From a virus, in IMG/VR virus record IMGVR_UViG_3300015374_000015, positions 1 to 45,830 of that record: a DNA stretch of 45,830 nt; one strand, 5' to 3'. Below are positions 6,749 to 45,830 of this stretch, piece after piece. Position 1 is the stretch's first letter. Each line of letters starts with the position of its first letter. Below the pieces are notes generated by a model. That model had not been told where the DNA came from. It was given only the letters and a program-made list of their open reading frames with translations, and made no database searches. Position numbers and translations under genes: made by a program.

Positions 6749-7056
6749 AGCGCCGTGATCGCATTGTGGTGGCAATCGCCAACCTTGTCCTACGTGCTGC
6801 TTCTAAGCGCTATCGAGACTTGACCAAAGCGCTGATCGTGCGAGGCATGGAGGCTGAGCTCTGCGTTTGTTGGCAGCGCCAGGCAATGTTCGAAGAACTT
6901 CCTGAAATGCCGACTCTCAGAGAGTTAGAGGCACTTGCAGTCCTTTACGAAACTTCACCTGGACATCTCCTTGACGAGTGCTACGAACGGGTAGGGCGCA
7001 AGCTCCGCGAGGAGGAGGAAGGCGACGCCGAAGAGGCTGCTGAGTCCAATGCCTAG
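6745..7056 (+). CDS. Hypothetical protein with acidic tail
   Basis: 103 residues. A basic N-terminus (MKRRDRIVVAIANLVLRAAS) and two helical segments lead to LRELEALAVLYETSPGHLLD, which resembles part of a HTH, and then to an acidic tail (REEEEGDAEEAAES). It overlaps the 7049 gene by eight bases. Function unknown; co-expression with the next gene is likely. Confidence 0.65.
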   Translation: MKRRDRIVVAIANLVLRAASKRYRDLTKALIVRGMEAELCVCWQRQAMFEELPEMPTLRELEALAVLYETSPGHLLDECYERVGRKLREEEEGDAEEAAESNA

Positions 7057-8044
7057 GCCTGACGAGAGCCCCGAAGTGACCGAAGCCGACGCGACGGAGA
7101 TGCGCGTAGAGCCGATTTGGACCGAGACGATTGGCGCTGATCCGATTCTCGCACCGCCTATACAGGCCCAAGCCATCGTTCCTCACGTAGAGCCAGGTGA
7201 TCTCGTCAAACGCCTTGAGGCGATCAAGGAGACCGCCAGCCGGGCGATGGAAGAGAACGTGGACTTCGGGAAGATCCCCGGCACTGACAAACCGACGCTG
7301 CTCAAGCCCGGCGCAGAGAAGCTCGCGGTTCTCTTCAAGCTCGACCCCGAGCCCGAGAACGAAAAACGCTGGGAAGAGAACGGGCACCTGACCGTGGTCT
7401 CGCGCACCACGCTCTATGACAAGGAGAGCGGAGTGCGTTGCGGAACCGGCGAGGCCATTTGCTCTACGCGCGAGAAAAAGTACGCCAAGCGCCAAGCTGG
7501 CCGTAAATGCCCTGTATGCAGCAAAGAAGCAATCATCAAAGGCAAGGCCGAGTACGGCGGTGGCTGGATTTGCTTCAAGAAGAAAGGCGGGTGCGGCGAG
7601 AAGTTCCCCGAAGATCAGCCTGCGATTGTTCAGCAAGAGGTCGGCGAGATCGATAACCCCGACCTACCCGACACTTGGAACACCATTGACAAGATGGCTT
7701 CGAAGCGCTCCCTCGTTGCCGCTGTTCTGATCGTCACGGGAGCTTCGGCGATATTCACCCAGGATTTGGACGAGCAGGTAGACGCAGCAGCTACCAGTCC
7801 GGCATTTGCACTAGCCACTGGAGAGCAGAGCACGCGCCTGTCCAAAGCCTTGTCCTACTTGCTCCCACCTGACGATCAACAAGAGGCCAAACGGGCGATC
7901 ATCGGAGCGTTCAACGGTGAGCTGTATGGCCCCGCAGCAGAGGCCGTGTGCGCCGTCATACGTGCCCACAAAGCCAACGTGGACGCTGAAAGTATGGAGG
8001 CCCAAGAAGCGTTGAATGCGGAGAGGGATGCGAGCGATGGCTGA
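7049..8044 (+). CDS. Conserved phage DNA-metabolism protein with zinc ribbon
   Basis: 331 residues. Residues 70-95 (NVDFGKIPGTDKPTLLKPGA), a zinc ribbon with Cys154/Cys157 and Cys175/Cys182, and residues 208-240 (DTWNTIDKMASKRSLVAAVL, TGASAIFTQDL) form a pattern I associate with a widespread phage family of unclear function, often near recombination genes. The lysine-rich helix recalls ssDNA-annealing proteins, so a role in single-strand DNA handling is possible but unproven. ATG 7049 overlaps the previous gene. It is the largest gene of the left arm. Confidence 0.6.
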   Translation: MPRPDESPEVTEADATEMRVEPIWTETIGADPILAPPIQAQAIVPHVEPGDLVKRLEAIKETASRAMEENVDFGKIPGTDKPTLLKPGAEKLAVLFKLDPEPENEKRWEENGHLTVVSRTTLYDKESGVRCGTGEAICSTREKKYAKRQAGRKCPVCSKEAIIKGKAEYGGGWICFKKKGGCGEKFPEDQPAIVQQEVGEIDNPDLPDTWNTIDKMASKRSLVAAVLIVTGASAIFTQDLDEQVDAAATSPAFALATGEQSTRLSKALSYLLPPDDQQEAKRAIIGAFNGELYGPAAEAVCAVIRAHKANVDAESMEAQEALNAERDASDG

Positions 8045-8141
8045 GTGGCCGCTAGGCGACCCGCAGCCTTTCACCGGCCCTCTCGCATGGCCTATTTGGC
8101 GCTCTGCATTTCCCTACGACTGGGAGAAAGATGACTGTTGA
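8037..8141 (+). CDS. 34-residue hypothetical peptide
   Basis: MAEWPLGDPQPFTGPLAWPI and on to WEKDDC; unusually rich in Trp and Pro. ATG 8037 overlaps the previous stop region by eight bases, and the frame overlaps the next gene by eleven. The composition is atypical for random sequence, but support is only contextual. Confidence 0.4.
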   Translation: MAEWPLGDPQPFTGPLAWPIWRSAFPYDWEKDDC

Positions 8142-8283
8142 GAATTGGATACGTCGTATAAATAAGCTCGCCCTAGATCTTGAAAAACAGCGTCATGGGT
8201 TGCATCCCTCAGCTTGGAGAGAGACCCTGGCTTCCGACACGAGGAAATACGAGATGCTGACCAAGAAGAGGCCGCTTCCATGA
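8131..8283 (+). CDS. Small hypothetical protein
   Basis: 50 residues, MTVENWIRRINKLALDLEKQ, helical and basic. It starts inside the preceding short frame (AAAG upstream) and ends in an ATGA overlap with the 8280 gene. The two short frames 8037 and 8131 overlap; 8131 is the better supported because of its coupling downstream. Confidence 0.5.
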   Translation: MTVENWIRRINKLALDLEKQRHGLHPSAWRETLASDTRKYEMLTKKRPLP

Positions 8284-8459
8284 GCCTTCGCTGCAGGCTT
8301 TTAGGCCATCGCCCAAGGTGTTCTCATCGTCGCGAGGCTATCGAACACGGTTACATATCTTCAAGTCGTTTCTGTGGTTTGACCTGCGGGAACTGCAAAG
8401 GTTGCAAGCAAGATTTGTGGTGGAACGGGAACCGTTGGGAGATTCGGAATGGCAAGTGA
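8280..8459 (+). CDS. Small cysteine-rich zinc-binding protein
   Basis: 59 residues. MSLRCRLLGHRPRCSHRRE, then FCGLTCGNCKGCKQDLWW: a cluster of CxxC motifs with nearby histidines, probably one or two zinc sites. ATG by ATGA overlap. Partner unknown. Confidence 0.65.
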   Translation: MSLRCRLLGHRPRCSHRREAIEHGYISSSRFCGLTCGNCKGCKQDLWWNGNRWEIRNGK

Positions 8460-8718
8460 AGTTGAAATACTAGAAAGAAAACTAGAGGCCGCCTCCTGGC
8501 ACCGCAAAGAGCTGGTGCGTCAGGGTAATCGACTCTGTAAATTCGCACTGTTAACCGACACCCATGAGTCTCGCGCCCTTGCCGCTGTCAAGGATTGGGA
8601 CGACTACGTCGCTTCGATACGCAACGAGCGCCTGGTCGTCTCCCGCGAGCGCCTGCTCGACGAGCGCTGGGGCTATAACCCGACCGCGGCGACCAACACG
8701 GATAGAGTGGTTCGATGA
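8449..8718 (+). CDS. Hypothetical helical protein
   Basis: 89 residues from ATG 8449. A charged helix (EVEILERKLEAASWHRKELV) at the start and a second one (DDYVASIRNERLVVSRERLL) suggest a coiled-coil hairpin. It ends in an ATGA overlap with the next gene. Function unknown. Confidence 0.65.
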   Translation: MASEVEILERKLEAASWHRKELVRQGNRLCKFALLTDTHESRALAAVKDWDDYVASIRNERLVVSRERLLDERWGYNPTAATNTDRVVR

Positions 8719-8936
8719 AGTCACCGGCTAGGAACAAGCCAGCGATCATGGGCCGCTATGAAACCCGGGACGTGGCGAGATTGGCGCGCAATCGTTTCGA
8801 GGATATGCCCGGTGCATATCACCGAGTTCGCTTCGATCCTTGCGAGCGCTATCCAGAGTATCCCTGGACACTGGTGGTCTATGAGTGGAAAGAGGAAGCT
8901 GATCTGATTGACCACAATGGGGAGGTACTGCAGTGA
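8715..8936 (+). CDS. Small hypothetical protein
   Basis: 73 residues. After a short basic lead the sequence reads MGRYETRDVARLARNRFEDM, then YPWTLVVYEWKEEADLI, a mixed alpha/beta pattern. ATG 8715 is coupled to the stop before it; an inner ATG at 8748 is also possible. Function unknown. Confidence 0.6.
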   Translation: MKSPARNKPAIMGRYETRDVARLARNRFEDMPGAYHRVRFDPCERYPEYPWTLVVYEWKEEADLIDHNGEVLQ

Positions 8937-9097
8937 AGTATGTCCTTACCACCCAAGAATTGATGGACCTGGCGAAGGAAGTGGGGGCCGAGATTCTTTC
9001 TCATGTTGATGCCGAGGATACGCCAGTCGAACGAGTGGATAGAGCTGTCAGGGCTGTTTTCGCTCAAAACGGTGTTAAGTACGAGGAGGACTCGTGA
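8933..9097 (+). CDS. Small hypothetical acidic protein
   Basis: 54 residues from GTG 8933 (GTGA overlap). VKYVLTTQELMDLAKEVGAE, then VDRAVRAVFAQNGVKYEEDS; two helices. The stop overlaps the next GTG. Function unknown. Confidence 0.55.
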   Translation: MKYVLTTQELMDLAKEVGAEILSHVDAEDTPVERVDRAVRAVFAQNGVKYEEDS

Positions 9098-9414
9098 GCT
9101 TCAAGACTTGGCGTCGCGAGCGGCACCTGAATCGAAAAGCCAAGAGGGGGCCATATCCGATACATGGACGCTCTCTTGGCTACTGCGACTCGGCACGCGA
9201 ACCCTATACGTGGTTTGTCTGCAATCACGGGCATCGCAGCATGGGTTCCCCTTGGGCAGAACCAAGGCATGAGTGCTTTCGATGCGGCTTCACCGAACCG
9301 CTTGAGTTCACGGGCTGGCGCGTAGCTGATCCCGACGAGGCATTTGAGGGAACGATGGAAGCGATTGGCCCAACGGTAGACGCCGATTCGCTTTACGTGC
9401 GGACTCAAGAATGA
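9094..9414 (+). CDS. Hypothetical protein with zinc-ribbon centre
   Basis: 106 residues from GTG 9094. Basic start (SFKTWRRERHLNRKAKRGPY), then VCNHGHRSMG and ECFRCGFTEP, giving possible zinc ligands C-x1-H-x1-H and C-x2-C. The C-terminus is acidic. It immediately precedes the recombinase gene with an ATGA overlap, so it may be co-expressed with it. Confidence 0.6.
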   Translation: MSFKTWRRERHLNRKAKRGPYPIHGRSLGYCDSAREPYTWFVCNHGHRSMGSPWAEPRHECFRCGFTEPLEFTGWRVADPDEAFEGTMEAIGPTVDADSLYVRTQE

Positions 9415-10250
9415 CCTGCGACGATCTTGCAGAGTGCTGGACTCGAAGATGGCCGCGCCCAAGCGAGACCTCGAACAAGCAAGGCGCTTACATGGTGAAG
9501 ACGTGGGGCGAAGAAAACGCGGGCGTCGAGCTAGGGGACTACACCCGCGAACAGGCACGTGAGTACGGTCTGAAGTACCCGTCGCGCGTCAAGTTCCTAC
9601 GTGCTATGTTTAACGATGCTATCCGTGATGGTCTCATAAAGCCACGAGCCAATCTCATGCTCATGAACCCCTTCAGTGCCCTTCGGATCGCCAAGCCCCG
9701 CAAGGAGCGCTACTTCCCGAGCACCGAAGAGGTACAGGCCCTTATCAGAGCCGCTCAGGAGCCGCTGAGAGGCCGTATCCGCTTCAGTGCATACACGGGT
9801 CTCAGATTAGGCGAGATGCTGGCTGTGCGGCCCTGTGACCTTGGCGATGGTCGTGTAAACGTTCGCTGGCAAATCAACCCCAGCGACGAACGTGTGCAGC
9901 GTAAAGGCAAAATCAAGGACTACTGGGCGCTCATACCTGAGCAAGGGCGCATCAGCCCTTCGTGGCTACTGCTTTCTCACGGTCACGCCGAGCGTCTTTG
10001 GCCTCATCCCCGCTATCTCTACAACAAGGAATGGAACGCTTTACGCAAGCGCCTCAAGCTCCCCGAGAACTTCGTCTGGCACAGCCTGCGCCACCACGCT
10101 GCTACGTGGTTCTTGGACCAGGGCGCGAGCTTCGAGGACGTGGCGATTCAGTTGGGGCACTCGGACGAGGGAACGATGGTGCGAGAGGTCTACGGGCACC
10201 GGGATCGCGGCAAGGCACTCGACAGACTAGAGGCTGTAGTCAATGGCTAA
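9411..10250 (+). CDS. Tyrosine recombinase (phage integrase family)
   Basis: 279 residues. A helical core-binding region (about 25-95) is followed by the catalytic domain with Arg132 in YTGLRLGEML, His224 and Arg227 in WHSLRHHAATWF, His250 in IQLGHSDEGT and Tyr261 in REVYGH, the full R-H-R-H-Y set. A lysine in RKGKIKD probably fills the beta-hairpin position. The N-terminal arm-binding domain of lambda-type integrases is short or absent. The enzyme could integrate the phage or resolve circular forms. I find no clear repressor or attachment site next to it, so the lifestyle stays open. Confidence 0.85.
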   Translation: MTCDDLAECWTRRWPRPSETSNKQGAYMVKTWGEENAGVELGDYTREQAREYGLKYPSRVKFLRAMFNDAIRDGLIKPRANLMLMNPFSALRIAKPRKERYFPSTEEVQALIRAAQEPLRGRIRFSAYTGLRLGEMLAVRPCDLGDGRVNVRWQINPSDERVQRKGKIKDYWALIPEQGRISPSWLLLSHGHAERLWPHPRYLYNKEWNALRKRLKLPENFVWHSLRHHAATWFLDQGASFEDVAIQLGHSDEGTMVREVYGHRDRGKALDRLEAVVNG

Positions 10251-12888: not shown

Positions 12889-13142
12889 GTAGGCGAATAC
12901 AGGTCGTCGGCGGTCCCCGTGACGGTGATTTCGTGCCTGACTACGGGCCTGTATACCGCGAACCTGTCCCGGTGAAGCATTCTGTCCGTATACCGCTCAG
13001 CGTGCAGGTTCCCGCTGCCTTTGAGCTTGAAGTTCAGCACCAAATGCCCTTCGAGGAACGCATTTACGACCGCAAGCAATGGTTCAACGGAGCCAACGTC
13101 GAACCTCGTTACGTGTTTCGTGGCTGGAAGCTCGGCCAGTGA
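12885..13142 (+). CDS. Small hypothetical beta-rich protein
   Basis: 85 residues from GTG 12885. MSRRIQVVGGPRDGDFVPDY followed by several strands (VKHSVRIPLSVQV, RYVFRGWKLGQ). The opening I-x-V-x-GGP-x-DG is a motif seen in many small phage proteins of unknown function. Coupled to the next gene by GTGA. Confidence 0.6.
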   Translation: MSRRIQVVGGPRDGDFVPDYGPVYREPVPVKHSVRIPLSVQVPAAFELEVQHQMPFEERIYDRKQWFNGANVEPRYVFRGWKLGQ

Positions 13143-13318
13143 CGCGTTCTCACCTACGAGCCGTAGTAGATGGCGAGACCGTGCATCGATGCTTCGTTGA
13201 GCGTCCATCGCGCATGTGGCAAGCGCAGTGCTCCTGCGGCTGGAAGGGGAGCAAAATGTGGCACCCAAGGCTTGCGGAATCACAAGCTTCTGGGCATCTC
13301 GGGGGAACTCGTGGCTAA
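13139..13318 (+). CDS. Small protein with shared HLRAVV(D/E)GET leader
   Basis: 59 residues from GTG 13139. The first 14 residues (VTRSHLRAVVDGET) match the starts of the 13311 and 13903 genes. The rest (QCSCGWKGSKMWHP) has a C-x1-C and histidines, possibly zinc binding. The N-terminal module is therefore shared among three neighbours whose bodies differ. Confidence 0.6.
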   Translation: MTRSHLRAVVDGETVHRCFVERPSRMWQAQCSCGWKGSKMWHPRLAESQASGHLGGTRG

Positions 13319-13526
13319 AGCGCACCTCAGGGCGGTCGTGGAGGGCGAGACTGACCGTCGCATCTTCCGCATCATCGACCCCGATACAGGCGAGCACGAG
13401 GATCACGTGGGTGGCTGCCCAGAATGCAGAGCCAACGACGATTACATAGCGGGCCTCCAACGCGACGTGAAGGCAGAGCACTTGCGCTACGAGAACCTTA
13501 AGCGAGACAAGGATGGCTGCACGTAG
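13311..13526 (+). CDS. Small protein with HLRAVVEGET leader and CxxC
   Basis: 71 residues from GTG 13311, overlapping the previous gene by eight bases. VAKAHLRAVVEGETDRRIF, then GGCPECRANDDYIAGLQRD and a charged helix. The first 41 bases are nearly identical to those of the 13903 gene; bases 13326-13351 are repeated exactly at 13918-13943. Confidence 0.65.
   Translation: MAKAHLRAVVEGETDRRIFRIIDPDTGEHEDHVGGCPECRANDDYIAGLQRDVKAEHLRYENLKRDKDGCT
13326..13351. repeat. 26-bp direct repeat (copy 1; copy 2 at 13918-13943)
   Basis: The 26 bases encoding LRAVVEGE(T) are identical in the 13311 and 13903 genes and diverged in the 13139 gene. Identity at the DNA level, including third positions, points to a recent duplication or gene conversion of just the 5' end. 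Confidence 0.85.
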
Positions 13527-13715: not shown

Positions 13716-13910
13716 ATGAGCGAAGAAGACCGCCAGGTACGCTGCGAAACCGCGCTTGAAGAACTGGCCGATCCCGAAAACTGGCACGGCAACCCACACG
13801 ACCAGAGCGCATGGCTCTTCGGCCACTTCACGCCGTACGAGCTTGCCCGCGAGGCACTTGGCCTGCCAGAGGACCCCGAAGGGCCGCAGGAGGCCGCTGA
13901 GCGTGGCTAA
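13716..13910 (+). CDS. Small acidic hypothetical protein
   Basis: 64 residues from ATG 13716. MSEEDRQVRCETALEELADP, then NPHDQSAWLFGHFTPYELAR. A TTGACA lies at 13698-13703, too close to serve this start. It overlaps the replisome-organiser-like gene by eight bases. Function unknown. Confidence 0.6.
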   Translation: MSEEDRQVRCETALEELADPENWHGNPHDQSAWLFGHFTPYELAREALGLPEDPEGPQEAAERG

Positions 13911-14400
13911 GCCGCATCTCAGGGCGGTCGTGGAGGGCGAGACCGGCCAAATCTTCGCCAACCCTTGTCCTCGCTGCGAAGACGTAGAGCTTGGCGATTT
14001 AGAAAACGCAGAACGCCGCATTCGCAAGCTGGAGCGCCAGATACGAGCCCTGGAACTCGACAAGCAGGCCGCACGTGAAGGAGACCCGCAGCGAGCCGTG
14101 GTTCTAGGCCTTATAGACGCTTGGAAGCGCCACACAGGGCATCCGAAGGCTAACGCGAACGCCGGGGACCGCTTCGATGTGGTCAAAGCGAGGCTCGCAG
14201 AGGGCTACACGCCCGAAGATATCGAGCTAGCTATCGAGGGCATCGGCGCAAGGCCTTACGTAGTCGAAGGACAGCGCGTAAAGCACGGCGGTCGTGGTCA
14301 GCGCTTCGACAGGCTTGGCATTGTCTGCGGTGGCGGTGAGCAAATCGAGAAGTTCGCGGTGATCGGATACGAAGCGAGAAAGGAACGAGAGGCAAAATGA
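13903..14400 (+). CDS. Putative replisome organiser / replication initiation accessory protein
   Basis: 165 residues from GTG 13903. After the shared leader (VAKPHLRAVVEGET) come CPRCED, a coiled coil (ENAERRIRKLERQIRALELD) and a C-terminal domain with LGLIDAWKRHTGHPKANANA, RFDVVKARLAEGYTPEDIEL and FDRLGIVCGGGEQIEKF. That domain pattern recurs in phage replisome organisers that load the host helicase at the origin. The usual N-terminal winged helix seems replaced by leader plus coiled coil. No polymerase or helicase is visible, so the phage probably relies on host replication enzymes. Confidence 0.6.
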   Translation: MAKPHLRAVVEGETGQIFANPCPRCEDVELGDLENAERRIRKLERQIRALELDKQAAREGDPQRAVVLGLIDAWKRHTGHPKANANAGDRFDVVKARLAEGYTPEDIELAIEGIGARPYVVEGQRVKHGGRGQRFDRLGIVCGGGEQIEKFAVIGYEARKEREAK

Positions 14401-19504: not shown

Positions 19505-19783
19505 ATGGCCCACGTCCTCTGCCCAATGACGATCACGAGCCCGGAGCCCGACTACGGCCTACCGGCGAACCTTGAATGCGGTGAACCGTGCCGCGTAGAG
19601 CGAGTAGCGCAGGCCATGCACTTCAAGTGCCCACGAGGCCACGATTTCTACGCGAATCCCTGCGATGTCATCCCACCGCCGCAGAAAAGCCCGTCTAGCC
19701 TGATACGCTTCGCGGGTGACAGAGAAGGCATGCACCAAATGCGGCGAGACGAAACCGCTGGAGGACTTCAACCGCTTACGTAG
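19505..19783 (+). CDS. Hypothetical protein with zinc-ribbon-like motif
   Basis: 92 residues from ATG 19505. MAHVLCPMTITSPEPDYGLP, NLECGEPCRVER, HFKCPRGHDFYAN: cysteines and histidines spaced like a zinc ribbon. The last 23 codons overlap the HNH gene in another frame, so the true C-terminus may once have been different and the HNH gene may have inserted into its end. Confidence 0.6.
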   Translation: MAHVLCPMTITSPEPDYGLPANLECGEPCRVERVAQAMHFKCPRGHDFYANPCDVIPPPQKSPSSLIRFAGDREGMHQMRRDETAGGLQPLT

Positions 19784-20183
19784 CGCCAAGGACGGCCACG
19801 AACCGCGCTGTCGGGAGTGTAGGCGGCAGGAGCGCAAGGCGTGGAGAGAGAACAATCCCGGAGCCGAACGAGAGAGCCGGAAGCGGCGCTACCAACGCAA
19901 CCGCGACCATGAAATCAAGGGCATCGCCAAGTGGAAGCGCGAACATCCCGAGCGTGTCGCGGCTACGGCAAAGCGCTACTACGAGCGCCATTCCAAGAAA
20001 CACGAAGCCCGCAGGCTTGTTTCAGAGGCGATCAGGGACGGAGTTCTCGTGCGACCGGAAGCGTGTGAGATCTGCGAAGGCCGTGATTCGATTCAGGCGC
20101 ATCACCCGGATTACGATAGGCCGCTCGACGTTGAATGGCTCTGCCTCTCGTGCCATACTGACACTCACGCCCGTCTAGCTTAA
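19716..20183 (+). CDS. HNH homing endonuclease with N-terminal zinc module
   Basis: 155 residues from GTG 19716. Residues 6-35 (CTKCGETKPLEDFNRLRSAK ... CRECRRQ) are a zinc module; 40-105 are basic helices; 117-146 (CEIC ... IQAHHPDYDRPLDVEWLCLS, CHTDTH) form the HNH/treble-clef nuclease core with the HH pair as catalytic candidates. A close relative is at 25392, a broken one at 32071-32797 and a remnant at 34257. The 3' end overlaps the tRNA-like sequence by 15 bases. Such enzymes nick DNA and spread by recombination. Confidence 0.8.
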   Translation: MTEKACTKCGETKPLEDFNRLRSAKDGHEPRCRECRRQERKAWRENNPGAERESRKRRYQRNRDHEIKGIAKWKREHPERVAATAKRYYERHSKKHEARRLVSEAIRDGVLVRPEACEICEGRDSIQAHHPDYDRPLDVEWLCLSCHTDTHARLA

Positions 20184-20240
20184 CAGCAGAGCGCCGGTCC
20201 TGTAAACCGGAGGGTCCCAGAGCGAAGCTGGGGACGGGCT
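20169..20240 (+). tRNA. tRNA-Thr(UGU)-like sequence with atypical D- and T-loops
   Basis: A full cloverleaf can be drawn: acceptor GCCCGTC/GACGGGC (20169-20175/20233-20239, 7 bp); D-stem GCTT/GAGC; anticodon stem CCGGT/ACCGG with loop CCTGTAA, anticodon TGT at 20201-20203; variable loop AGGGT; T-stem CCCAG/CTGGG. All spacings match a tRNA. Three things are odd: position 33 is C instead of U, the D-loop AACAGCA lacks the GG pair, and the T-loop AGCGAAG lacks TTC. Because both partners of the D/T-loop contact are missing, it may be a degenerate tRNA or a tRNA mimic. CCA is not encoded. Confidence 0.5.
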
Positions 20241-21726: not shown

Positions 21727-21867
21727 GCTCTCGACATCCCTTACGTCTCGACAAATCAGCGTTCCTACCTTCACGTGCACTTTCCAGCACTTGCTAAGCG
21801 CTGGGACAAGCGCTATGGCGGCAAGATAGCCGAGCCTCGCAAGCATCGTGGCTCGGAGAGACGCTGA
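21727..21867 (+). CDS. In-frame extension after two amber codons, no usual start
   Basis: 46 codons in the frame of the previous gene after TAG-CGC-TAG: ALDIPYVSTNQRSYLHVHFP, ALAKRWDKRYGGKIAEPRKH, ending RGSERR and TGA, which overlaps the next ATG (TGATG). The composition is clearly protein-like. The only ordinary start inside is GTG 21775, which would leave 30 residues. It may be reached by readthrough, use a rare start such as ATC, or be the 3' part of a broken gene. Confidence 0.45.
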   Translation, partial: ALDIPYVSTNQRSYLHVHFPALAKRWDKRYGGKIAEPRKHRGSERR

Positions 21868-23648
21868 TGGCCTTTCGAACCAAGAACACCTACACGACCG
21901 GCCAAGGTTCGTACAACACGAAGAACAAGACCTATAGTGGCAAGGGCAGCGCATCGGCCGGGTACAAGAAAGTCGCGGCTCCCAAGCCGAGCGAAGTCCC
22001 CACGGTCACGACAGACGTATCGAGCGGACGCACGACGACCTCTGGGTTCCCTTCTCAGCGGGCCGCCATACGCGCCAAGAAGCGCCGAAGAGCCGCTGTT
22101 CGCACCGAGAGACGAAAGACCCGTGCGCTTAATTTGGCACGCCGTGTAGCTGCTAAACGGCGTGCCATTACTTCACAAAATGAAGCGAGGGTTAAGAGCA
22201 CGGAAGCTGCGATTCAGGCGCGAAGAAGTGCAAGTAGGGGGCCTTCGACTGCAAGTAAAGCGTCGTCAACTGTGAGACAGCCCGCGAACGCTGTCAAACC
22301 GCCGAAATTTGCGGGGCGTAAAACGGCTGGCACGCCGACGCTTAAGTCGTTGCGGCAAGCTAAATCGCAGGGAAAGCTCAAGGTCAACCAGCGTGGCTAT
22401 CTGACGACGCCAGCGGTGCGCAAGACGGCTTCGAAGGTTAAACTGCTAGAATCGAAGGCACGGAATAGTTCCTCGCTCCTCCCCGGGCTGACACCGCAGG
22501 CATCCCACGTCGCGCATGTGGTGCTGGCTCGGGGAGCCAAAGCCGGAGCTACGCGTAAGGAAAAGCTCGCTGCGGCTGAGACAGGGTTGGTGGAGTCGGG
22601 TTTTGAAAATTTGCCAGGAGGAGACGCAGATTCCGAAGGCTGGCGGCAAGAGCGCTCCTCGCTCTATCCGAATCCACGCAACGTCAAAGCCTCGGCCTCT
22701 CGCTTCTTCCAGGAGGCAAAAACGGATACGGGGGGTGTGCGTGGTCGTGGGCAGACTGCTGGGCAGCTTGCCCAGACGATTCAGGGTTCTGCTTACCCGA
22801 AACGCTACGACGAACGCAAGCCTGAAGCCAACGCGATCCTCAAAGCCTACGAACGGGGTAGCCTGACGCAAGTTCAGCGTCGAAAACTTGCGTCAGCTCG
22901 AAAAGACGCAAGTAGGCTTGGCCTCAAGGGGCTTACGAAAGGTAAGCAGGTTGGTCCGGCTCCCAAGAAGGTCGTGACGCGCTATAAGGCGATTAAGGCT
23001 TCTGCGAAGGCGCTGGAGAAGATGAACGTGCCCTACGTCTACGGAGGTGGCCACGGAGCCCCCGGGACGCCTAATCCTTCCGGTGGCCTGGATTGTTCCT
23101 CTTCGACCGTCTACCTGCTCAACAAGGCAGGCGTCAAGGTGCCGAACATCACGTCGGGCGAATTTGGCAATCACTTCCCGCCCGGCCCCGGCGCGGTGAC
23201 GATCTTCTACAACCCCGGGCACGTCTTCCTGCGCATCGGCGAGGACTACTACGGAACTTCCGTGGGCGACAGCGGTGCCGGTGGCCTCGGCTACCACCCC
23301 GCGCCCGGTTCGGACTACCTCGCTCAGTACAGCGTCGCCCATGTGCCCGGTCTCGGCAAGAAACAAGCGCTCCAGCTCGGGATCAGCGCGGCCACCCCTA
23401 CGAGCTTCCCCGGTATGTCGCTTTCCTCCAGCGGGACTACGGCGACGATTGAATCGGGCGCGACGATTAGCGGCAAGCCGGGCTTCTCCTCGAAGCCGAT
23501 CAAGCTTACGCAGGCGCTGAAAGCTCGCCGTACGTACCGGCAATTGCGGGAAGCGGGCGTGGGGACGGGGAAAGCGGTCTCAGGCGAGGAAGCGACTTCG
23601 CCCACTTTGCGCAGCCTGGAAGCCAAGTACGGCGTGAAAACGGGGTAG
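21867..23648 (+). CDS. Virion-associated lysin: transglycosylase-like plus NlpC/P60 domains
   Basis: 593 residues. Residues 1-200 are basic and low complexity. Residues 210-330 resemble a lysozyme-like domain, with Glu243 in AAETGLVESGFENLPGGDAD as likely catalyst and GWRQERSSLYPNP downstream. Residues 385-500 form an NlpC/P60 domain: VPYVYGGGHGAPGTPNPSGG, Cys410 in LDCSSSTVYL and His452 in NPGHVFLRI. A dual glycan- and peptide-cutting enzyme packaged in the particle would open the wall for DNA entry. Its position before the large terminase is unusual, since such genes normally lie with the tail genes. Confidence 0.8.
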   Translation: MAFRTKNTYTTGQGSYNTKNKTYSGKGSASAGYKKVAAPKPSEVPTVTTDVSSGRTTTSGFPSQRAAIRAKKRRRAAVRTERRKTRALNLARRVAAKRRAITSQNEARVKSTEAAIQARRSASRGPSTASKASSTVRQPANAVKPPKFAGRKTAGTPTLKSLRQAKSQGKLKVNQRGYLTTPAVRKTASKVKLLESKARNSSSLLPGLTPQASHVAHVVLARGAKAGATRKEKLAAAETGLVESGFENLPGGDADSEGWRQERSSLYPNPRNVKASASRFFQEAKTDTGGVRGRGQTAGQLAQTIQGSAYPKRYDERKPEANAILKAYERGSLTQVQRRKLASARKDASRLGLKGLTKGKQVGPAPKKVVTRYKAIKASAKALEKMNVPYVYGGGHGAPGTPNPSGGLDCSSSTVYLLNKAGVKVPNITSGEFGNHFPPGPGAVTIFYNPGHVFLRIGEDYYGTSVGDSGAGGLGYHPAPGSDYLAQYSVAHVPGLGKKQALQLGISAATPTSFPGMSLSSSGTTATIESGATISGKPGFSSKPIKLTQALKARRTYRQLREAGVGTGKAVSGEEATSPTLRSLEAKYGVKTG

Positions 23649-23752
23649 ACTGACTTGGTCGTTGTTTGTTTGGCGCGCGTTCGGCCTCGCCTGTACTGAG
23701 AGTTCGTCACCTCAGTGGCGAGGTCGTCGTGTAGTTGCGGTTGAATGGCCGC

Positions 23753-25318
23753 GTGAGCGCCGTCGCCGACCTCGTAATCCCCGAGCACCTTCAGAAGGAC
23801 CCCGAGGCACTCAAAGAGCTTGCCGAACTTGAGGCGATCTTCGAGGCGAATCCGCTTGAGGCCTACAACCACCCGGAAATCGCCAATGTCTTTCCGAGCT
23901 ACAAGGTGCATGAGAAGCAGATGGCGTTTCATGCGATCAAGGCTCCGCCGCTCGGGATCAAGGCCGCGATAGCAAGCAACCGTGCTGGCAAGACTGTTTC
24001 GTGCGTGGTGGACAACATCATCCAGCTTATAGACGAGGCTCATGTGCCTGTGCATCTCAAAGCTTTCAAGAAATTTGAGGGGCCGATTACGATCTGGATT
24101 GGCGCACCGAAGATGGATACGCACATGAAGAATACGGTCCCGCTTTTCCGCAAATTCCTGCCCAAAGCGGAACTTATTGCGGGCCAGTTCGGCAAGTCCT
24201 TCAAATCTCAGCCTCCCGAACTGCGGCTGAAAAATGGCTCCGTCGTGGCTTTCAAAAGCTATGACATGGACCTTGATGCATGGGCGTCGGCAGAGGTCCA
24301 TCGGATCAACTGGGACGAGGAGCCGAATACTGCCAATAGCAGGGAATTGAGGACGGAGGCCCGCTTTCGCCTGGTCTCCACGGCGGGCGACGAGATTATC
24401 GGCATGACGCCGGTTCTGGGCGCGCTTTCGTGGGTCAACGATGAAGTCTGGGAAAAGCGTGATTCTGATCCCTCTGTGGCCGTCGTACAGATGTCGATCT
24501 ACGACAACCCCTACAACACAAAAGAGGTCATCGAAGAGGTCGAACGGGGATTGACCGAGGATGAGAAACGGGCGCGTATTTACGGCGAATTCGTCCATCT
24601 CGGCGGTCTCTTTTACGAGGAGTTCCGCGATTCAGTGCACGTGGTCGATCCGATCACGCCCGATCATTTGAAGGGCCAGGACATCGTTGTGGGGATTGAT
24701 CCAGGCCGCAATCGCACAGGCGTTGTCTGGACTTGCTTCGACAAGGACAACGCCGCGATGGTCTTCGATGAGTTCAATCCGCGAGAGGCGACGGTTGTTG
24801 CGGTTGCCGATGAAATCAAGCGGCGCAACAAGGCTTGGGGTCTTGATGAGGACAAGGTGACCTACGTGATCGACCCCTCGGCGCGCAACACGTCTGCAAT
24901 CAATGCCGATCAGGTCGCTGCTGCCTATGCGCGCTCGGAGATTTACTGCCAGTACGGCCAGAATAGCCGTGCGGCGGGCATCTTGGAGATCAAGCGCCGT
25001 TTGCAGGCAAAAGATGCCGATGGGAATTCGAGCCCGCTGCTCGTCTTCTGTCGCAACTGCTCAGAAACGATCAGGCAGCATGAAAAATACGCGAGAGACC
25101 CGAAAGCAGCCGACGAATGGGCTGCTGTAGCTCAGACAGATACCGTTCGAGCCGACCTTGCGGACAGCACTCGCTACTCGATAATGAGTAGAAATTATGA
25201 GTTCACCGACCCCGATGAGATCGTTAAGCCCCCGCCCCATTTCGACCCGGTATCGGAGCCTCCATTTGACCCCAATGACTTCTTGATAGACCCTGCCCCA
25301 ATGGGCGATTGGTCTTGA
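23753..25318 (+). CDS. terL: Large terminase subunit
   Basis: 521 residues from GTG 23753; TTG 23735 would add six. ATPase part: Walker A SNRAGKT (75-81), Walker B VHRINWDEE (182-190) with catalytic Glu, coupling motif IIGMTP (215-220). Nuclease part (RNase H fold): Asp316 in VVGIDPGRNRTG, Asp374 in YVIDPSARN and acidic residues in TDTVRADLADS (462-472). The motor cuts and pumps DNA into the head through the portal. No strong ribosome site is visible; the gap before it holds a small hairpin (ACCTC/GAGGT). Confidence 0.9.
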   Translation: MSAVADLVIPEHLQKDPEALKELAELEAIFEANPLEAYNHPEIANVFPSYKVHEKQMAFHAIKAPPLGIKAAIASNRAGKTVSCVVDNIIQLIDEAHVPVHLKAFKKFEGPITIWIGAPKMDTHMKNTVPLFRKFLPKAELIAGQFGKSFKSQPPELRLKNGSVVAFKSYDMDLDAWASAEVHRINWDEEPNTANSRELRTEARFRLVSTAGDEIIGMTPVLGALSWVNDEVWEKRDSDPSVAVVQMSIYDNPYNTKEVIEEVERGLTEDEKRARIYGEFVHLGGLFYEEFRDSVHVVDPITPDHLKGQDIVVGIDPGRNRTGVVWTCFDKDNAAMVFDEFNPREATVVAVADEIKRRNKAWGLDEDKVTYVIDPSARNTSAINADQVAAAYARSEIYCQYGQNSRAAGILEIKRRLQAKDADGNSSPLLVFCRNCSETIRQHEKYARDPKAADEWAAVAQTDTVRADLADSTRYSIMSRNYEFTDPDEIVKPPPHFDPVSEPPFDPNDFLIDPAPMGDWS

Positions 25319-25391: not shown

Positions 25392-25805
25392 ATGGCAGGG
25401 CAAGGATACAAGCGGTGCCCGAAATGCGGCGAGACTAAGGCGTTCGAGGCGTTCTACAAACGCAGTGCCAGCCCAGATGGACGGCAAGGTTGGTGCGTGC
25501 CGTGCCAGCGACAGCGGGTCAAGGACTGGAAACAGGAGAATCCGGTCCGGTTACGGGAGCTCAGCCGCCGTGAAAGGGAACGGCATCCAGGAAAATCGAG
25601 GGCGCGTGGGCTGGTCAAAAGATTCGTGCGTGAAAGACGCATAGTCAAGCCTGATCTCTGCGAGGGATGCAGGAAGGCCACGGAGGTTTCCAAGCTTCAC
25701 GGCCACCACGAGGACTACAGTAGGCCGCTAGATGTCGAGTGGCTCTGCCAGGGTTGTCATGCAGAGCGGCACGGCAAGCTCAAATCTTCCGAAGGAGAAC
25801 CCTAA
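25392..25805 (+). CDS. HNH homing endonuclease, intact relative
   Basis: 137 residues from ATG 25392. An N-terminal zinc module (CPKCGETKAFEAFYKRSASP ... CVPCQRQ), basic helices, and a nuclease core CEGC ... LHGHHEDYSRPLDVEWLCQG, CHAERHGK. The last 30 residues are nearly the same as in the 19716 gene (SRPLDVEWLCxGCH versus DRPLDVEWLCLSCH). Inserted between terminase and a structural gene without disrupting either. Confidence 0.8.
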   Translation: MAGQGYKRCPKCGETKAFEAFYKRSASPDGRQGWCVPCQRQRVKDWKQENPVRLRELSRRERERHPGKSRARGLVKRFVRERRIVKPDLCEGCRKATEVSKLHGHHEDYSRPLDVEWLCQGCHAERHGKLKSSEGEP

Positions 25806-35955: not shown

Positions 35956-36587
35956 CGAATATTGTCTATCCCAAGCTGAACCAGACCGGGGTCAACGAAT
36001 GGGCCGATGTCGAAGACGATCTGCTCGCCGTCAGCACTGTTGTAAACGGTTCGTTGACCAATGACAACCTCTCCGGAGCCGCGGCCATTACCCGCTCGAA
36101 TCTTGCCGCCGCCGCCAAACCTTTGCTGTGGTACACGCCGACAATCATTGCGACGGAAGAGAGCAGGACCAGCGCGAGTTATGGACTTTTGGCGACTCCC
36201 GATGAGGTCTCTGAAGTGGTTGTTCCCGAAGGAGCCCTAGTCCTGGTTTCGTACATCGCTCTCGCGAGACAGGAAACAGCAGGCAACGTCAACGCGAATA
36301 TCTTTTTTGGCTCCACGGCGGTTACTGGGCCCGAAGCATTGGAAGAAGAAGGCGGCGGGCATGCTTCAACCAACTTTCGTGCGGTGTTTACGGATGGACC
36401 TCTTGGACTCAGGTTTGGAGGCCAAACTGTGAACAACGTTCCTTCAACTGGTTTCTTGATGGGGGTTTCGGAGTTCTATGTAGCCCCAGGAACATACAGT
36501 GTTTCAATACGCTGGAAAACCTCTGCCGGCAAAGCATTGGTCAAGCAGCGTCGCCTATATGTGGGCGTCAAGGGTGCAACAGCCTAA
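35952..36587 (+). CDS. Tail-associated structural protein, possibly fibre base or receptor-binding
   Basis: 211 residues from ATG 35952. N-terminal helix (NQTGVNEWADVEDDLLAVST), then beta-rich C-terminal 130 residues (VVPEGALVLVSYIALARQET, FYVAPGTYSVSIRWKTSAGK), like a jelly-roll. Its N-terminus resembles attachment regions found in phage fibres. It is followed with TAATG by the long fibre. Likely a tail fibre or fibre connector. Confidence 0.55.
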   Translation: MTNIVYPKLNQTGVNEWADVEDDLLAVSTVVNGSLTNDNLSGAAAITRSNLAAAAKPLLWYTPTIIATEESRTSASYGLLATPDEVSEVVVPEGALVLVSYIALARQETAGNVNANIFFGSTAVTGPEALEEEGGGHASTNFRAVFTDGPLGLRFGGQTVNNVPSTGFLMGVSEFYVAPGTYSVSIRWKTSAGKALVKQRRLYVGVKGATA

Positions 36588-38341
36588 TGGCATGGCCTCT
36601 CCCCGGCGGCGTAGTCTCTGACCCGCCCTCAGCCCAGAACTTCGATGCCCTAGCCGCCGAAGGCGGCTTGCTCGAAGAATCGGTTCACGCCATTGAAAAA
36701 GAAGGCGTTGGACCTTCGGGCAAAGCGGGCGGCGTTCTCTCCGGCGAATACCCGAACCCAGGGTTCGCTGCGGATATGGCGACTCAGGCAGAGCTTGAAA
36801 CTCTTGTAGCGGCCGAGGAATCGGCTCGTAAAACGGCTGACAGCACGGAGAAATCAGAACGCGAATCCAAAGACGCCGAACGAGTCGTGGGTCCGGCCAG
36901 TGCAACTAGTGGCGTACTGGCCGCTTTTGACGGTACCACCGGCAAGCTGATCAAAGTCGCCGGGAAAATCGTCGCAGAACAGATCGAAGCGGGAACGATC
37001 ACGACGGAACTCCTCGCCGCCAATTCGATCACGTCCGAAAAAATCAAAGCGGGAACCATCGAAGCCGGTGACATCAAAGCAGCGACCATAACCTCCAACG
37101 AGATCGCCGCCGCCACGATCACTTCGGGCAATATCGCTTCGGGGACGATTACGGGTGGCAACATCGCCAGCGGCACGGTAACGGCGGGCAACATCTCGGT
37201 CTCGAAACTCTCAGCCCTGAGTGCCGATCTGGGCACGATTACTGCCGGGACCGTTACGGGGGCCACTCTACGCACGGCAGCCGAAGGCACCCGCTGGGAA
37301 GTCAATACCGAAGCAATGCGCGCCTACAGCGGTGCGACCCCGGTACTTGATTTCAACCTCTCGACCGGCAATCTGAAAATCAAAGGGACCATCGAAGAAG
37401 GCTCGACCATCCCGGCTCCGACGATCACTGGAACCATCGTAGAAACCCAGATTGGCAACGAAGCAATAACGACCGCGAAGATCAAAGCCAACACCATCGA
37501 AGCCGGGGATATCAAAGCAGAAGCGATTACGACAACCGAGATTAAAGCCAATACCATCCTTGCCGGGGACATCGCAGCCACGACTATTACCGGTGAAAAA
37601 ATAGCCGCCGAAACAATCACTGGCACAAAGATTGCAGCCACGACTATTACCGCAGGCTTGATTGCCTCTAACGCGATAGAAGCAGCGAAGATCAAAGCCG
37701 GTGCGGTAACTGCCGAAAAACTCAGCGTCTCCGAACTCTCAGCTATTAGCGCCAGCCTTGGGACCGTCACGGCGGGAACTATCGAAGGACTTACCATTAA
37801 GCTTTTGCTGGATACATCTGGCGAAAAGATTGCTAAAGATACGGTTTCATGGATCAATAGCGAAGGGATTGAGAAGGCCTCAATATACGTAACAGGGAAA
37901 GGTGAAGCTGGATCGACCAATACCCTTTTTTTGGATGCCGGCAAGAAAGGCGCAGGGGAAGCGTACGGACGGATTAAACTAGCGACTGTTGGGCTCGAAG
38001 CTCCTACTGCAGAAACCTATGAAGCAGTACTGCTTGAAAAAAAGGGTAAATCAGATTTCCTCCAGCTCACCGAAACCGCGAAGCGCAAAGTCAACTTTGG
38101 TGAAGTCAAAATCACCGTAGAAGCTGGCACCGACGCAGCGAACGTCGCCACCGTCGAACATGGGCTTGGGGCGGTCCCCAAATACGTCGGCCTGATCCCC
38201 GTAGCGGCCAAATCGGGTACCGTCATTGCGCCACGGTTGGCTGCCGCTCCGACCTCTACGAAATTCGAAGCTACATTTTCGTCAGATGTGAACTTCGGAG
38301 CGAAAACGGAAATCGTCCACTACTGGGTGGCCGTGGGTTGA
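36587..38341 (+). CDS. Tail fibre with decapeptide-repeat shaft
   Basis: 584 residues. After an N-terminal adaptor and helix (residues 1-125), residues 131-200 contain seven perfect-register 10-residue repeats (xxIxAxTITx), a cap motif VSKLSALSADLGTITAGT (205-222), a beta domain (230-285), then eight more repeats (297-376) and the cap repeated as VSELSAISASLGTVTAGT (381-398). Residues 400-584 form the tip, ending with strands. Such repeats build a trimeric beta-helical shaft. The tip is the probable receptor binder. The 30-bp DNA repeats could vary in number by recombination. Confidence 0.75.
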   Translation: MAWPLPGGVVSDPPSAQNFDALAAEGGLLEESVHAIEKEGVGPSGKAGGVLSGEYPNPGFAADMATQAELETLVAAEESARKTADSTEKSERESKDAERVVGPASATSGVLAAFDGTTGKLIKVAGKIVAEQIEAGTITTELLAANSITSEKIKAGTIEAGDIKAATITSNEIAAATITSGNIASGTITGGNIASGTVTAGNISVSKLSALSADLGTITAGTVTGATLRTAAEGTRWEVNTEAMRAYSGATPVLDFNLSTGNLKIKGTIEEGSTIPAPTITGTIVETQIGNEAITTAKIKANTIEAGDIKAEAITTTEIKANTILAGDIAATTITGEKIAAETITGTKIAATTITAGLIASNAIEAAKIKAGAVTAEKLSVSELSAISASLGTVTAGTIEGLTIKLLLDTSGEKIAKDTVSWINSEGIEKASIYVTGKGEAGSTNTLFLDAGKKGAGEAYGRIKLATVGLEAPTAETYEAVLLEKKGKSDFLQLTETAKRKVNFGEVKITVEAGTDAANVATVEHGLGAVPKYVGLIPVAAKSGTVIAPRLAAAPTSTKFEATFSSDVNFGAKTEIVHYWVAVG

Positions 38342-45198: not shown

Positions 45199-45296
45199 TT
45201 ACCGGAGCTGGGTGCCGCTGATTATTTCTTTGGGCACGGGCTCGACCTCGTATCGCTCAATCCACTCCAGGGCGTTTACTTCGGCTTGACTGCGTG
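45199..45296 (-). pseudogene. 3' part of the split 75-codon gene
   Basis: Reading on the minus strand from the 15-bp repeat (RSQA) it continues EVNALEWIERYEVEPVPKEI, ISGTQLR and stops at 45199. Alone it has no start; its true start is ATG 322 at the other side of the inserted segment. It ends 15 bases from the stop of the 1412-codon gene on the other strand. Confidence 0.85.
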
Positions 45297-45599
45297 CTGG
45301 CCATCGTTGAGGGCGCAGAGATCGCAGCAGTAGGCCGACCCCTTGGCGGCGACCCGACCGCAGCCTTTCTCGCAGTCGCGCGGAGCGGGGCCGTCGATCA
45401 CGCGCTCCTGGGGACCGCCGCGCCACTCCGCGAAGCGACAGCGGAACTCCTCCATCGTCACGTAGCGGTGGCCGTCCCTGGTGCGGCGGTGCATCTCGCG
45501 GTGCTGGTACTTGGCGCCGTTCCCGCGGACGATGGCTCCGCAGGTGCAGAAGTGAGCGTGGCGAGCGTGGGCCTGGGCGCGCTGCTTGGCGGTGCTCAT
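45276..45599 (-). CDS. Zinc-finger protein in the inserted segment
   Basis: 107 residues from ATG 45599. MSTAKQRAQAHARHAHFCTC, GAIVRGNGAKYQHREMHRRT, then CEKGCGRVAAKGSAYCCDLC. Two metal-binding groups (C-x1-C with H-x3-H, and CEKGC with CCDLC) are visible, as in many actinophage accessory proteins. The last four residues (VKPK) and stop lie in the 15-bp repeat and phage side, so its natural end was probably cut off. The start overlaps the stop of the gene before (ATGA). Confidence 0.65.
   Translation of the reverse strand: MSTAKQRAQAHARHAHFCTCGAIVRGNGAKYQHREMHRRTRDGHRYVTMEEFRCRFAEWRGGPQERVIDGPAPRDCEKGCGRVAAKGSAYCCDLCALNDGQHAVKPK
45282..45296. repeat. 15-bp direct repeat flanking the inserted segment (phage right side)
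   Basis: The second exact copy of CGGCTTGACTGCGTG. Bases to its left (45281 and lower) belong to the split phage gene; bases to its right to the GC-rich segment. In circular coordinates the two copies are 700 bp apart. Confidence 0.9.
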
Positions 45600-45802
45600 A
45601 GCGCTTCGATCTCCCAGCCGTACACCGTGGTCAGCTCGTAGTCGTCCAGCCACACCCGGTAGATCGGCCCGTCGTGGGGGTCGAGGATCACGGCCTCGAT
45701 CTCACCCGTCTTGCATGGGCGAGTGTTCAGCGGCCACACGTCGTCGCGGATGACGAAGGAGTCGCCGGGCTTCAGCATCGACTCCTCGACCGTGGCCATC
45801 AT
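45596..45802 (-). CDS. Small hypothetical beta protein in the inserted segment
   Basis: 68 residues from ATG 45802, which overlaps the TGA of the gene running in from position 1 (TGATG). MMATVEESMLKPGDSFVIRD, then GEIEAVILDPHDGPIYRVWL, DDYELTTVYGWEIEAL. Looks like a small SH3-like or beta-barrel phage protein. GTG 45805 and ATG 45799 are alternative starts. Third-position GC is visibly higher than in the phage body. Confidence 0.65.
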   Translation of the reverse strand: MMATVEESMLKPGDSFVIRDDVWPLNTRPCKTGEIEAVILDPHDGPIYRVWLDDYELTTVYGWEIEAL

Positions 45803-45804
45803 CA

Positions 45805-45830
45805 CCGCCCCGCCAGCTCTTCCTGGATGC
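45805..45830. repeat. Terminal direct repeat, right copy
   Basis: Identical to bases 1-26. One copy should be removed when the sequence is treated as a 45,804-bp circle. Confidence 0.9.

Follow-up and report, generated by a model that had tools for sequence, protein, structure and literature searches.

The window analysed here, the whole 45,830 nucleotides of the viral record IMGVR_UViG_3300015374_000015, contains a 685-bp segment (hereafter S) whose origin differs from that of the surrounding phage. The sequences flanking S join up again in a single reading frame, the 15 bp repeated on either side of it are resident sequence, and genes are cut at both of its edges. It appears somewhat likelier that S reflects a chimera of sample preparation or assembly than a natural capture of DNA from another phage, the weights given to these and the remaining readings being judgements made without computation.

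The geometry of the site is defined by two exact copies of the 15-bp sequence CGGCTTGACTGCGTG, which mark the right (45282-45296) and left (178-192) ends of the resident phage. Because the ends of the record overlap by exactly 26 bp (1-26 being identical to 45805-45830, a redundant record end within S), the underlying circle measures 45,804 bp. Around it the repeat starts lie 700 bp apart, as the original prediction had claimed for these same two copies, and they enclose S as a first part of 508 bp (45297-45804), which continues via the circular join into a second part of 177 bp (1-177). A 15-mer that recurs within 46 kb is, by number alone, nothing unusual: order-2 Markov sequences lead one to expect about 2.7 such pairs, versus 33 seen in the window, many of which are pieces of longer repeats. 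Its position, however, is not chance, since composition, foreign homology and reading-frame breakpoints independently coincide there. Elsewhere in the record, a degenerate repeat ladder with a spacing of about 60 bp occupies 37049-37699 within a tail-fibre-like gene (36587-38341), and two 47-bp stretches (13310-13356 and 13902-13948), 592 bp apart, are 89% identical, a third and weaker copy lying at 13138.

The DNA between the repeats had been described as GC-richer, and its GC content is indeed 68.3% versus 59.2% in the rest of the phage, where 889 windows of equal size reach a maximum of about 65.1%. The second and third of the genes in S have GC3 values of 0.93 and 0.90 versus 0.67 in resident genes, which suggests that the source of S had a different, GC-richer host. 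Two order-3 models were compared, one built on the resident phage and the other on the contig bearing the only relative of S (IMGVR_UViG_3300037070_006409). S obtains +33.7 in this comparison; the mean is -23.1 (sd 8.8, maximum +3.5) for windows of the resident phage and +21.7 (sd 12.0) for those of the contig. A maximal-scoring-segment search blind to the repeats delimited a block from 45297 or 45299 to 181 with an LLR of 34, the next-best composition block anywhere in the phage having an LLR of 8. Composition, GC3 and homology agree that parts of different genomes are joined here, as would be expected of a preparation or assembly chimera.

Three small minus-strand genes had been foreseen within S; three are present, with the correction that the first lacks a start and bears an apparent frameshift. 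Gene 3 (45294-45597, minus strand) has a product rich in cysteine and histidine, putatively zinc-binding by its CxC...HxxxH and CxxxC...CCxxC motifs. Its 101 foreign codons match a gene in IMGVR_UViG_3300037070_006409, a viral contig of 78.9 kb and 66.5% GC that shares no similar DNA with the resident phage, at 74% identity over 101 residues in protein and 79% in DNA; a degenerate pattern for its core matched only this already known contig. The DNA similarity ends 16 bp before the repeat, where the gene of the relative runs on with a different sequence, and in S the gene is truncated at its 3' end at the repeat, its frame continuing as HAVKPK and a stop through the repeat to 45276. Gene 2 (45596-45799, minus strand) is an ORF of 67 residues with both start and stop within S. 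Gene 1 (1-177, minus strand), whose 5' end is lost at the repeat, ends just before gene 2 and shows an apparent one-base frameshift near 103, where coding moves to another frame and no stop codon is close by. The claim that two of the frames are cut at the repeats is thus upheld by genes 3 and 1. Searches for relatives of genes 1 and 2 found none; genes 2 and 3 matched no recombinase or other family and no recognised domain, nor was a domain recognised in the short read-through piece of gene 1 that was scanned. On the contig of the relative, a 755-residue ORF at 6819-9086 carries an apparent intein-like insertion, and in the record itself the stretches 19731-19772 and 25416-25457, which are 76% identical, encode C.KCGETK-type motifs and possibly belong to small HNH-like zinc proteins.

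Taken together, homology and composition segmentation support S being a fragment of an unrelated, GC-richer phage, in line with the suggestion in the original prediction that it is a piece of another phage. No significant inverted match exists between its two ends, and nothing in S points to a functional mobile element. As it has neither recombinase nor terminal inverted repeats, and disrupts both the resident gene and the genes at its own edges, it can be seen as passenger DNA.

The resident gene that S interrupts is recovered when the flanks are joined through one repeat copy (322-193, the repeat and 45281-45199, minus strand), yielding a 75-codon ORF, MNPDLSEYGINFYQHKGSSYWYWRGTTPSGRTFGPAALFAGFKSRSQAEVNALEWIERYEVEPVPKEIISGTQLR, with AGGAGG upstream. 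Its head (179-322, minus strand) comprises 48 codons, including 5 from the repeat, and its tail (45199-45281, minus strand) follows in frame via that single copy, each part scoring positive in the same frame. The joined ORF has a codon score of 8.0, where off-frame stretches obtain -16.3 +/- 7.0 (maximum 2.8) and true genes 16.3 +/- 6.5, and its GC3 of 0.70 and codon usage are those of the resident phage. Read in the joined frame, the repeat specifies part of SRSQA, which assigns the 15 bp to the resident gene; S is flanked by an exact 15-bp duplication of its target within that reading frame. The expectation that removal of S and one repeat would restore an uninterrupted gene of 75 codons is thus confirmed by frame, AGGAGG and codon score. 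Searches of the joined protein and of S separately had also been proposed; the latter led to the viral contig matched by gene 3, while the joined 75-residue protein gave nothing usable among phages, viral contigs, genome contigs, Pfam, PHROGs, NCBIfam and PDB sequences. As none of these yielded a homologue, the case for the gene is made solely by coding statistics, frame and ribosome-binding site.

Of the possible origins of this arrangement, the chimera that the original prediction had listed as its third option is modestly favoured, with natural capture a less probable but credible contender. In such a chimera, S would be a random, non-functional fragment from another phage. The DNA of the resident phage may have been broken at a staggered site, with S joined into or across the break, and fill-in of the staggered ends would have left 15 bp of resident sequence on both sides. 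The joining would most likely have come about not in a cell but when the sample was prepared or amplified or the reads assembled, and the ends of the record would then fall in thinly covered foreign sequence. In keeping with this, S is compositionally foreign with its borders at the repeats, and the GC3 gap suggests a source adapted to a different host. Further, a frame jump is seen in gene 1 of S, and no unexplained one between genes in the late half of the resident phage, which the codon scan models well (the early half is modelled poorly, and frameshifts there were possibly missed); however, the decay of unselected DNA would likewise yield a frameshift in S.

The ends of the record also lie inside S, and their overlap of 26 bp is not a usual assembler k-mer length. 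The authors of CheckV describe circles closed by short-read assemblers as overlapping by odd k-mer lengths, e.g., 55, 77 or 99 (PMC8116208), by which measure a 26-bp overlap resembles a pair of ends at which the reads gave out. The same arrangement was sought in viral contigs, phages and genome records and was found in none, near-identical records possibly lying outside these searches. The nearest structural relative, IMGVR_UViG_3300044837_000270, has 65-77% DNA identity over the late genes and carries other genes beyond the homologous last late gene, with neither S nor the 75-codon gene; it is the sole structural relative, at only about 70% identity, and terminase- and integrase-based searches added no further ones.

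Against a chimera, the same 15 bp stand at both junctions and S is unbroken across the record ends, in natural gene order, which points to one event and one molecule and not to two random chimeras. A rare molecule made in vitro should, moreover, be outcompeted in assembly by the many intact ones, unless real physical ends of the phage DNA lie here or the sample was heavily amplified; by the same token, this argues for natural capture, as a minority chimera should not oust the intact form. The chimeras that phi29 amplification or ligation produces in metagenomic libraries resemble S in joining unrelated, functionless DNA at short identical stretches with arbitrary ends within genes. They differ in that their overlap is typically about 5-8 nt, though up to 21 has been seen, and in that they have one junction each and are mostly inverted (PMC4595205, PMC1855051), whereas S has two junctions with the same 15 bp.

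Natural illegitimate capture is a possible, though less probable, origin. Here, a 685-bp piece of another phage would have been inserted in a co-infected cell during repair of a staggered double-strand break, or by a template switch, in the resident genome, duplicating 15 bp of the target and inactivating a dispensable 75-codon gene; the capture would be real and recent, its fragment coming, perhaps, from a phage that infects another host lineage. A single event of this kind accounts for both identical 15-bp flanks and the unbroken S, and the frameshift and cut edges suit unselected passenger DNA. The 15-mer fits the frame of the resident gene and is not visibly native to the relative of S, where the best match is 9/15 (shuffle P 0.51), leaving its presence in the source unsupported. 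Against it weigh the very different codon usage of the source, suggesting another host, the 26-bp overlap of the record ends within S, which would be odd in an evenly covered genome, and the want of any relative bearing S among those found.

A foreign phage gene block of different GC inside a phage genome is also what illegitimate recombination and mosaicism in tailed phages produce. Established mosaic joints usually lie at gene borders and leave genes intact, unlike S, which breaks three genes. An insert between short direct repeats of the target recalls, likewise, the target-site duplication of transposons, from whose insertions S differs in lacking a transposase and terminal inverted repeats and in having its genes cut short at both edges.

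An unlikely reading, which overlaps with the chimera as one concrete route to it, is that the resident phage is linear with 15-nt cohesive ends at this site, the fill-in of which produced a 15-bp terminal repeat, with S ligated between the ends. This would explain the exact duplication and the absence of an assembled intact junction, and the site does lie where the last late gene gives way to the first early genes; however, it falls within coding sequence and not between genes, and the terminase large subunit (23735-25318) is about 21 kb off. Directly before the terminase gene is an ORF of 593 residues (21867-23648), a short stretch of which matches endolysin families and the tape-measure proteins of Gordonia phages.

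That the tyrosine recombinase of the phage integrated S site-specifically, with the 15-mer as core, is very improbable. The phage does encode such an enzyme (PF00589, 3e-11), and both junctions share an identical core of 15 bp, a plausible size. However, the integrase gene (9411-10250) is about 9 kb from the site and not next to a junction, arm sites sought by eye were not evident, S has no recombinase, terminal inverted repeats or evident att arms, its edges cut genes, the interrupted site is itself within coding sequence and shows no evident att structure, and the 15-mer is absent from both related records; the original prediction's suggestion of this enzyme is accordingly not supported. Integration of the resident phage into S, with S as the host flanks, was rejected because the flanks meet at the record ends with their genes in natural order, and only a circular or tandem host of 700 bp would give this. 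As GGGGTTCAAATC adjoins the repeat, a tRNA-like attachment site was considered and likewise rejected: the arms around it do not pair when the letters are read, and ARAGORN finds no tRNA there, the sole tRNA of the record being a tRNA-Thr (TGT) at 20169-20240.

If S is a chimera, as is modestly favoured, the circular closure of this record depends on a scrap of foreign DNA, the actual genome of the resident phage would measure about 45.1 kb and have an intact 75-codon gene, and caution would be called for in taking short end repeats of unusual length to prove completeness. If instead the insertion is real, the site would be a freshly made mosaic joint with its scar still visible; such joints are seldom seen, most of those that survive having already been filtered by selection. 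The end-joining of unrelated phage DNA would then have been caught before selection cleaned it up.
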